Assembly: GCA_027315065.1 (NCBI GenBank)
Contig: DAHUYT010000018.1
Span: 1 to 40,280 of the forward strand
Direction of reading: 5' to 3'
From: Nitrososphaerota archaeon
GTDB taxonomy: Archaea; Thermoproteota; Nitrososphaeria; Nitrososphaerales; Nitrosopumilaceae
Length of the DNA: 40,280 nt
The position numbers and the translations under genes were made by a program. The first letter of the stretch is position 1, and every line of letters starts with the position of its first letter. Of this stretch, positions 38,259 to 40,280 are shown piece after piece. Under the pieces are notes generated by a model, which was not told the DNA's origin, made no database searches, and saw only the letters and a list, made by a program, of their open reading frames with translations.

Positions 38259-39038
38259 CTAATGAATAAACTTGAAACCTATACCACTTAGACCTATGAT
38301 ATTGGCATCAAAAAATTTAGGTGGACCAAAATAATAGCCACTATTAGACCATGTCAAATTCCCAAGAGGTATTTTAGAAGAGTCGTTATACCCTACTGCA
38401 AAGACAAACCCCTGAAAATGCGAAAAACCTGTACTATACAGTCCTGAATAATTTCCAGTCTTTACGGTGTAAATTACTTGATTACTCGTTATTCCTGCAC
38501 TAACGTTGTTTCTGGATGCATAAACAACGATATCTGGGACAGAAAATATTCCACTAGAGTTTATTATATTGAATGAAAGACCCACTGGTTGATTATTCTG
38601 CAAAACGAGACTCTTATTTACTAAATCTTCATGAGGCACGACATTAAAATAATTAACACATATAATTCCTATAGAATTCTTAGGCATGTATAGAATCAGA
38701 GTACTATTTCCTTTTGTAAAATCTAACGGTGGCTGTAGAAGATCACGGCATGATGTAGAGATAGAGGTGGTGTTATTAGATGAAGACGATATAACTTTCC
38801 CAGCCCATCCACGTTCAATCAAGATATTTGCAGTATCCGGTGTTACACATGCTGGAGAATCATCTTCTGCTTTGATGACAAGTTGCATGCTATTGTTGCA
38901 TTTCACATTGGTTGCAGAAGTTCCAGCTCTGAATTGCTCCAATGGAGTCAATACAGAACCAACTGCATAAACATGTAAAACAGCAATGGTTCCAAATAAA
39001 ACCAAAATCAACCCTAGTGAAATACTAAAAGATTTCAT
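38259..39038 (-). CDS. Secreted thaumarchaeal protein, tandem paralogue A
   Basis: This exported protein of about 259 residues starts MKSFSISLGLILVLFG, parallel to MKSFYFS of paralogue B. The shared segment reads TPLEQFRAGTSATNVKCNNS, MQLVIKAEDDSPACVTPDT and NILIERGWAGK. The C-terminal beta domain has LILYMPKNSIGIICVN and VIYTVKTGNYSGLYS, ending GIGFKFIH like its partner. I chose ATG 39038 because the signal peptide begins there and a TATA-like TTTTTATC lies about 28 nt upstream on the minus strand; the frame is open to 39101. The two genes form one leftward transcript. Confidence 0.78.
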   Translation of the reverse strand: MKSFSISLGLILVLFGTIAVLHVYAVGSVLTPLEQFRAGTSATNVKCNNSMQLVIKAEDDSPACVTPDTANILIERGWAGKVISSSSNNTTSISTSCRDLLQPPLDFTKGNSTLILYMPKNSIGIICVNYFNVVPHEDLVNKSLVLQNNQPVGLSFNIINSSGIFSVPDIVVYASRNNVSAGITSNQVIYTVKTGNYSGLYSTGFSHFQGFVFAVGYNDSSKIPLGNLTWSNSGYYFGPPKFFDANIIGLSGIGFKFIH

Positions 39039-39109
39039 TACGATATTATGTTGTCTTCGAAAGGATAAAAATCCGCATGTATCATTAACATACAACTTCA
39101 TTTATCACA

Positions 39110-39209
39110 TCAATTTTCCATAGTGATTTGCCCAAAATATTTAGCATTTACTGATGCCTGAATACTGTTGTAAGAGTTGTTATAATACATCATTCCTGAC
39201 ATTGTTACA
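39110..39209 (-). pseudogene. 3' end of a probable secreted-protein gene interrupted by the IS481-like element
   Basis: Removing the insertion and one copy of its 6-bp duplication joins 39110-39209 to 40245-40280 in one open minus-strand frame. The joined frame reads NNAPQTLVNFTNVT across the junction, then MSGMMYYNNSYNSIQASVNA and KYFGQITMEN to a stop at 39110. Asn/Thr/Ser-rich sequence with N-glycosylation sites fits an extracellular protein. The insertion removes about 31 C-terminal residues from the upstream part, whose remainder lies beyond the window. Confidence 0.6.
39204..39209. repeat. Target-site duplication GTTACA (left copy; right copy 40239-40244)
   Basis: GTTACA abuts both outer ends of the inverted repeats, as expected for transposition with a 6-bp staggered cut. 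Confidence 0.85.
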
Positions 39210-39261
39210 TGTAGAGTGACACAATTATTGTCCGCTTTTGTTGACAGGGATATTGTCCGCT
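39210..39261 (+). repeat. Left terminal inverted repeat, 52 bp
   Basis: It matches the reverse complement of 40187-40238 at all 52 positions and begins TGTAGAGTGACAC. It contains ATTGTCCGCT twice (39227-39236 and 39252-39261), spaced 25 bp, probably two transposase-binding sites. Confidence 0.95.
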
Positions 39262-39297
39262 TTATCATGCCTTGATGTCGGTACAAGGCATGATAAA
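39261..39297 (+). promoter_or_regulatory. 14-bp-stem hairpin covering the transposase start
   Basis: The arm at 39261-39274 is the exact reverse complement of 39284-39297, with a 9-nt loop ATGTCGGTA. ATG 39275 lies in the loop and ATG 39290 in the 3' arm. In RNA this stem could limit translation initiation. Confidence 0.6.
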
Positions 39298-40186
39298 ATC
39301 AACATTTGAAACTAGAATGAGGGCTGTCATGCATTACACTGAAGGTGGCAAAAAAGCTAGAGAGATATCTTCAATATGTAACGTATCCGAGAGGACGTTG
39401 AGACGGTGGGCTCATGACTATCGCATCAAGGGGCCGCAAGCATTACATCCAAACAAGCCTGGCCCAGAATCTGGTATTGGATCCATTTCAAAAAAGCTTG
39501 AACAAAAAATAGTAAAGCTCAAACAAGAACACCCTTCTTGGGGCGCAAGACGAATCAAGTACCAGTATGATCTTCCTTGCCACTGGAGGACAGTGCACCG
39601 TGTCATCAAGAAGCACCAGATGCTTGTAAGAATCAAGCCCAAACCACAACCGTCAAAAAGATTCCAGAGACGACACGTTGATTCAATGTGGCAGGGTGAC
39701 ACGTTCCAGTTCCGTATTTCAGGCACGGGAAAGGTATACGTGACAGGGTTTACCGACGACCGCTCACGGTACCGCATCATATCGAAGGCCTACCTCAACA
39801 AGAGTGCAGCCGAGGCAGTAGATACGTTGCATAGTGCGCTAAGGAAAGGCAGAGTTCCAAGGCAGCTCTACCTTGACAACGGAAGGCAGTTTACCGCAAA
39901 GGAATTCAGAGACGAGCTTGCAGGATGTCATATCAGGCCAGTCTACGGCAGGCCGTATCATCCACGAGGAAGGGGAAAGATTGAGAACTACCACAAGGTA
40001 CTCTACAAGGATCTGATAACTCAGGTAAGGTTCAGATCACTTGCGCATTTCAAGAGGGAGCTTGGAAAGTTCGACAGGAGGTACAACCGTTGGAGGAAGA
40101 GTCAGGCATTGGGATGGAATACACCTGCGTCAATATATCATGACAGGAAGTATTTCAATAAGAAAAGACAGAAGATAACGATTTAG
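39275..40186 (+). CDS. IS481-like DDE transposase
   Basis: This protein of 303 residues from ATG 39275 has an N-terminal helix-turn-helix (KAREISSICNVSERTLRRWA) that should bind the terminal repeats. A basic linker with HPSWGARRIKYQY follows, and then an integrase-type catalytic core. The catalytic residues are D142 (WQGDTFQF), D201 (LYLDNGRQFT) and E237 (GKIENYHK), with 35 residues between the last two, i.e. DD35E. The fold and single-frame organisation match the IS481 branch of the IS3-like transposases. TTG 39272 or ATG 39290 are other possible starts. The stop codon abuts the right inverted repeat. Confidence 0.92.
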   Translation: MSVQGMIKSTFETRMRAVMHYTEGGKKAREISSICNVSERTLRRWAHDYRIKGPQALHPNKPGPESGIGSISKKLEQKIVKLKQEHPSWGARRIKYQYDLPCHWRTVHRVIKKHQMLVRIKPKPQPSKRFQRRHVDSMWQGDTFQFRISGTGKVYVTGFTDDRSRYRIISKAYLNKSAAEAVDTLHSALRKGRVPRQLYLDNGRQFTAKEFRDELAGCHIRPVYGRPYHPRGRGKIENYHKVLYKDLITQVRFRSLAHFKRELGKFDRRYNRWRKSQALGWNTPASIYHDRKYFNKKRQKITI

Positions 40187-40238
40187 AGCGGACAATATCC
40201 CTGTCAACAAAAGCGGACAATAATTGTGTCACTCTACA
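40187..40238 (+). repeat. Right terminal inverted repeat, 52 bp
   Basis: A perfect inverted copy of 39210-39261 that starts on the base after the transposase stop codon and ends ACTCTACA before the GTTACA duplication. Confidence 0.95.
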
Positions 40239-40280
40239 GTTACATTAGTAAAGTTGACTAAAGTTTGAGGAGCATTGTTA
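40239..40280 (-). pseudogene. Upstream part of the interrupted secreted-protein gene (continues past the window)
   Basis: After the GTTACA duplication (40239-40244), the minus strand 40245-40280 reads NNAPQTLVNFT and is in frame with the downstream fragment at 39110-39209 once the insertion is removed. Only about 12 codons of this part are visible. Confidence 0.5.

Follow-up and report, generated by a model that had tools for sequence, protein, structure and literature searches.

Control of transposase translation by RNA structure at the edge of the element has been worked out in a few bacterial elements. For example, translation in IS10/Tn10 and IS50/Tn5 is blocked by arms that lie in and next to the outer end and can pair only when the RNA is a read-through transcript. 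Archaea have a different transcription system, and their translation is often leaderless. IS200 carries two stem-loops, one terminating impinging transcripts and the other occluding the ribosome binding site (excerpts of PMC3196728). Antisense and Hfq control are described in the available passages of two further reports, which do not include fold-back (PMC4265352, PMC5006887). In ISPpu9 of Pseudomonas putida, secondary structure in the 5′ leader controls transposase translation, and two small RNAs act on this leader (excerpts of PMC8450116). In the IS481 family, most members generate 6-bp target duplications (excerpts of PMC10045372). The principle of hairpin control is already known in bacteria; in the openly licensed literature, with subscription papers outside the search, we found no such hairpin reported for the IS481 family or for archaea.

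The locus studied here lies near the end of a 40,280-nucleotide stretch of DNA from a Nitrososphaerota archaeon (hereafter the window), in a genome of 1.74 Mb. Its features are as follows.

39204..39209, no strand: left copy of the target site duplication GTTACA, the last bases of the left flank
39210..40238, gene on the + strand: IS481-like element, 1029 bp, one gene
39210..39264, + strand: left terminal inverted repeat, 55 bp long, with 98% identity to its right counterpart
39247..39254, + strand: AT-rich box GGGATATT, directly 5′ of the inner repeat motif GTCC (39255)
39261..39274, + strand: hairpin 5′ arm TTTATCATGCCTTG, its first 4 nt inside the terminal repeat
39275..39283, + strand: hairpin loop ATGTCGGTA, 9 nt, including an ATG (39275) not conserved as a start
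39284..39297, + strand: hairpin 3′ arm CAAGGCATGATAAA, including the most likely start codon and codons 2-3
39290..40186, + strand: transposase gene, 298 amino acids from ATG 39290, stop included, with HTH and rve/DDE domains, IS481-like
40184..40238, − strand: right terminal inverted repeat, with no hairpin counterpart beside it
40239..40244, no strand: right copy of the target site duplication GTTACA, the first bases of the right flank

The architecture is that of IS481-type elements, with 55-bp terminal inverted repeats, the left one containing two ATTGTCCGCTTT-type motifs, around a single gene in 1029 bp, and with a 6-bp target duplication on both sides. In the domain search, the rve and HTH domains of the transposase scored above the cut-off. 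Among family models IS481 matched best, but at 187.5 bits against an NCBIfam cut-off of 224 (IS3, 113.9; IS21, 56.4). Residues D137, D196 and E232 are invariant in the transposase alignment (A3). The insertion looks young, given its near-perfect terminal repeats and intact gene. A neighbouring gene with a WING-49 domain (38259-39101, − strand) starts about 110 bp from the element, which lies upstream of it.

As in the fold-back of read-through RNA in IS10/Tn10 and IS50/Tn5, an inverted repeat links the left end of the element to the start of the transposase, but those elements are bacterial, belong to other transposase families, and have Dam and antisense control. In IS200 of Salmonella, a left-end stem shields the start of transposase translation from impinging transcripts, as we propose here. 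IS200 is, however, a bacterial HUH element without terminal repeats, whereas the present element is archaeal, encodes a DDE transposase, has a 5′ arm that begins inside the terminal repeat and shows no terminator. With ISPpu9 it shares a structured leader, but the two small RNAs of ISPpu9 have no known counterpart here. The original prediction drew on bacterial elements and needs correcting on this point: both host and near relatives are archaeal.

The hairpin bridges the left terminal inverted repeat, at its inner end, and the start of the transposase gene. A perfect 14-bp stem with a 9-nt loop at 39261-39297 had been predicted at this junction, and both coordinates and complementarity were as claimed, with arms 39261-39274 and 39284-39297 perfectly complementary. 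The fold of 39240-39320 had an energy of −26.2 kcal/mol (z −4.36), which none of 200 dinucleotide shuffles equalled. A scan of the whole window for perfect inverted repeats (12 bp or longer, loop 3-20 nt) gave this stem alone, in three nested versions; 15 first-order Markov sequences had on average 0.07 repeats of at least 12 bp and 0 of at least 14 bp. Beyond its first 4 nt, the 5′ arm occurs only at the left end of the element, and a comparison of repeat and flank found no mirror of the hairpin at the right end. This, together with the lack of a terminator-like T run after the hairpin, argues against an end-recognition structure or a terminator. An intrinsic terminator was rejected, with 0 terminator-like sites in 39150-39450. 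A known RNA family was likewise rejected, as there was no Rfam match at gathering level; the single match (E 0.71) was on the opposite strand and at chance level. A sigma-70-like TTGACA-16-TATCAT at 39241 is thought to be coincidental because the host is an archaeon.

The transposase frame contains TTG 39272, ATG 39275, ATG 39290 and further ATGs downstream. Alignment with the relatives begins at 39290 (M-[IV]-K-[SA]), and in-frame stops lie 6 to 24 nt 5′ of the equivalent codon in L008, L015, L034, L065 and L009, so ATG 39290, in the 3′ arm, is the most likely start. The same stops make the loop ATG 39275 and TTG 39272 unlikely starts. Of the two candidate ATGs originally named, that in the 3′ arm is thus favoured over that in the loop, which is not conserved. 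The relatives start with ATG, GTG or TTG, and the 3′ arm contains or adjoins the start.

An order-wide search gave matches in 57 of 400 genomes, mostly distant (about 23-30% identity), and GTDB species genomes yielded 16 loci when scanned, of which those at 55-68% identity include Methanoregula, other Methanomicrobiales, Bathyarchaeota, Woesearchaeota and Micrarchaeota. Further copies came from the order of G406 (24 of 232 genomes), the phyla of G411 (8 of 245) and G410 (2 of 279), and the class of G405 (1 of 256). In the first of these groups, genome G894 has two intact copies whose protein is the same as that of L066, and a same-genus genome has a copy (L009/L033) equal to L063 (Thaumarchaeota archaeon). 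The majority of copies were decayed. Two tblastn scans of viral contigs found no relative. We left out fragments without a left end (L003, L006, L011, L012, L016, L040, L042, L050 and others), L037/L108, whose start was not recognisable, and duplicates (L033/L063 = L009, L036 = L010, L039/L110 = L008, L062 = L034, L101/L102/L105 = copies of L091/L097, L112/L129 = L066, and L131, L139 and L141). Opening energies were computed for 30 rows; 27 of these, without L072, L114 and L120, entered the junction-energy ranking and the upstream-pairing test.

A junction hairpin with differing arms, starts and pairing registers was found in Thaumarchaeota, Methanoregula, Bathyarchaeota, Woesearchaeota and Micrarchaeota. 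Its stems, given as 5′ strand/3′ strand, are as follows.

L008: TTACCATGCA/TGCATGGTAA
L010 and L015: GCTTTCACCA/TGGTGAAAGC
L071: outer GCTTTCAC/GTGAAAGC, inner AAATCACC/GGTGATTT
L070: outer GCTTTCAC/GTGAAAGT, inner AACCACCT/AGGTGGTT
L064-L072, Methanoregula-type: outer GCTTTCA/TGAAAGC, inner AGCACC/GGTGCT
L132: GTCGCATTTC/GGAATGTGAC, including two G-U pairs
L017: GTCTTTGGCAT/ATGCAAAAGAC, with one mismatch

When 65-nt stretches were ranked by energy, the junction was the lowest of the element in the window (1 of 75) and in L064, L070 and L071 (1 of 76), and ranked 2 of 76 in L065 and 3 of 76 in L066. It was weaker in intact L034 (7 of 76), where the ATG sits in the loop, and L132 (25 of 76). 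In brief, it ranked 1-3 in 6 of the 8 intact elements, and from 1 to 55 in the 19 non-intact rows. Pairing between the upstream RNA and the start region was compared with that of shuffled upstream sequence, giving p = 0.004 for the window, 0.002 for L064, L070 and L071, 0.014 for L066 and 0.026 for L065. Six of eight intact rows were below 0.05, with L034 (0.23) and L132 (0.06) above. For seven intact representatives Fisher's method gave 1e-7, or 1.9e-6 without the window, which had been chosen for its hairpin; because the rows share ancestry, neither these figures nor the p values are exact probabilities. Pairing in the decayed L013 and L014 was below that of the shuffles (p 0.98-0.99), and it was non-significant in L035, L017 and L002. 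Six of eight fetched bacterial IS481 loci served as a control, without L147 (start outside the stretch) and L148 (excluded for its origin). They differ from the archaeal elements in having no consistent start hairpin, with only one of six at p < 0.05.

Close methanogen copies make up many of the rows compared, which are therefore not independent. In the 14 aligned methanogen-type rows, every cell of the outer helix was paired (100%), with three departures, all G-U; the inner helix was paired in 81.6% and is missing in L010, L015 and L065. The inner helix covaries, with GC, CG and UA at one inner pair, and it also covers a GGTG Shine-Dalgarno-like motif. Of 500 shuffles, none came up to the real rows in covariation score or in the share of cells paired; 62 did so in the count of pairs with changes on both sides, which was 2. 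RNAalifold recovered the outer helix only from these rows, with pairs invariant or changed on one side and none on both. From 18 rows of mixed subgroups with differing registers it gave no common structure. A covariance model of the 14 rows (R1), from which the window was excluded, scored 24.1 bits (E 0.0015) at the junction in the window. This is weak support, since chance-level matches go up to 17 bits and repeat sequence contributes to the score. To tell RNA from DNA, G-U and A-C pairs were compared by eye: sense G-U wobbles occur in L065, L069, L070 and L132, and sense A-C mismatches in the decayed L002, L038, L067 and L116. The inter-arm distance varies, from the 9-nt loop of the window to about 13-22 nt or an extra helix elsewhere; in L071 the ATG is unpaired between its two helices. 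In L010, L015, L065 and L070, an extra outer helix (TTATGTCC/GGACATAA) joins the inner repeat motif to the M-D-I codons.

Damaged stems were found mostly in decayed copies, intact L034 being a weak case. L002, a frameshifted, cut-off remnant in the window genome, is mismatched at two places in the stem, each on the 5′ arm side, and its fold is non-significant. L038 has one stem mismatch, and the stems of L067, L116 and L121, copies with stops, are damaged. The original prediction had turned on stem conservation in other copies and on stem-breaking changes in active ones. The stem recurs in relatives and is clear in 6 of the 8 intact elements, though weak in L034 and L132, and none of the eight is clearly broken for its subgroup.

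Several elements lacking a full gene were also seen. L013 (G029) is a 536-bp internally deleted form with ends 92% identical, in which the gene start is kept and the junction hairpin is absent. L024 (about 1195-1565, in genome G038) and the similar L031 and L025 are MITE-like, about 370 bp long, with the same terminal repeats and no transposase gene. L029 (about 1505-1960) is a gene-less element with TGTAGAG ends; at the left one the inner repeat motif is multiplied, as a 23-bp unit, ATAATGTCCGCTTTTGTTAAGAG, repeated about six times head to tail.

The inner repeat motif (GTC) begins 34-37 nt 5′ of the start codon in all 30 rows, and in most of them an AT-rich octamer precedes it. Given the usual spacing between an archaeal TATA box and the RNA start, transcription would begin about 11-13 nt 5′ of the start codon. 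In the window, the AT-rich box at 39247..39254 is thus a candidate TATA-like element, with a putative RNA start near 39275-39283. The near-constant spacing fits a transcript that begins near the loop. In the eight intact elements, the computed median cost of opening positions −10 to +13 was 17.1 kcal/mol on read-through RNA versus 6.3 on an RNA from −12. The cost was higher on read-through RNA in 27 of 30 rows; in L034 the RNA from −12 was no easier to open (14.6 versus 14.7). For positions 0 to +13, read-through RNA was costlier than leaderless RNA in 30 of 30. A shorter RNA also opens more easily for trivial reasons, so the upstream-shuffle pairing test above is the proper control.

We suggest that the hairpin is a cis-acting RNA element of an archaeal IS481-like insertion sequence. 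RNA reading in from a host gene would carry both arms, and the 5′ arm would pair with the first codons, so that the start codon is buried and the transposase is poorly translated. In the methanogen-type relatives, the second, inner helix would also bury the GGTG motif. From a promoter of its own, for which the AT-rich box beside the inner repeat motif is the probable candidate, the element would start RNA near the loop, past the 5′ arm; in the methanogen types this RNA would start at the edge of the inner helix. Without the 5′ arm the stem cannot form, and this RNA would be translated. We consider it probable that the hairpin blocks translation of the transposase from read-through RNA while the shorter RNA escapes, and a read-through block is the best-supported function. 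Junction-specific pairing, turnover of the arms with pairing kept, near-constant spacing and damage mainly in decayed copies partly support the block and escape first proposed. The promoter, the transcript start, the translational block and selection for host tolerance are what we infer from these patterns.

The antisense strand pairs about equally well in most rows, so the pairing does not single out coding-strand RNA, and the equal pairing of both strands also speaks for a DNA operator. In that reading the arms, perhaps derived from the repeat, would form a dyad over the promoter to which the transposase or a host regulator binds, serving autoregulation in place of a translational block. The 5′ arm overlaps the terminal repeat, the 3′ strand in L010, L015, L065 and L070 (GAAAGC...GGACATAA) is like an inverted inner repeat, and the distant-clade stem ACACTTC/GAAGTGT repeats the inner end of the terminal repeat. 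However, the arms are not repeat-like in the window or L008, the inter-arm distance varies widely, and the inner helices change sequence yet keep pairing. We therefore regard an operator as unlikely overall. Less likely still is that the hairpin acts on RNA in another way, by keeping translation of the element's own full-length mRNA constantly low, by protecting the 5′ end or as the target of an antisense RNA. A start-codon stem would lower translation of any RNA with both arms, but the 34-37 nt spacing from the AT-rich inner repeat motif suggests a promoter that leaves the 5′ arm out. Weak or absent pairing in L013, L014, L034 and L035 and the two mismatches of the decayed own-genome copy L002 might be taken for signs of a chance stem or a by-product of repeat and coding constraints. 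The inverted-repeat count of the window against Markov sequences and the recurrence of the hairpin with altered sequence in several archaeal lineages make this very improbable.

Nine distant thaumarchaeal elements (27-30% identity) also have junction folds, with ranks of 1-12 of 76. Their stems are ACACTTC/GAAGTGT-like and the arms resemble the inner repeat. Because of these repeat-like arms and uncertain starts, this clade was not counted for the start-codon block; to judge from its sequences, an operator would be as likely there. L044, L049, L052 and L054 are distant IS481-like genes of Thaumarchaeota whose frames are open but lack an ATG, GTG or TTG near the conserved protein beginning; they may start by another codon or a frameshift.

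We can imagine, while leaning slightly against it, a gate between self and host transcripts across the IS481-like elements of several archaeal phyla, which would let translation proceed only on RNA begun at the element's promoter inside the hairpin, with both arms continually rewritten, an inner Shine-Dalgarno helix in methanogens, and a junction hairpin in the distant elements too. If the read-through block is true, archaea would share a bacterial solution, in a family for which the literature searched held no such control. It would also predict, to within about ten nucleotides, where the RNA made by the element itself begins.
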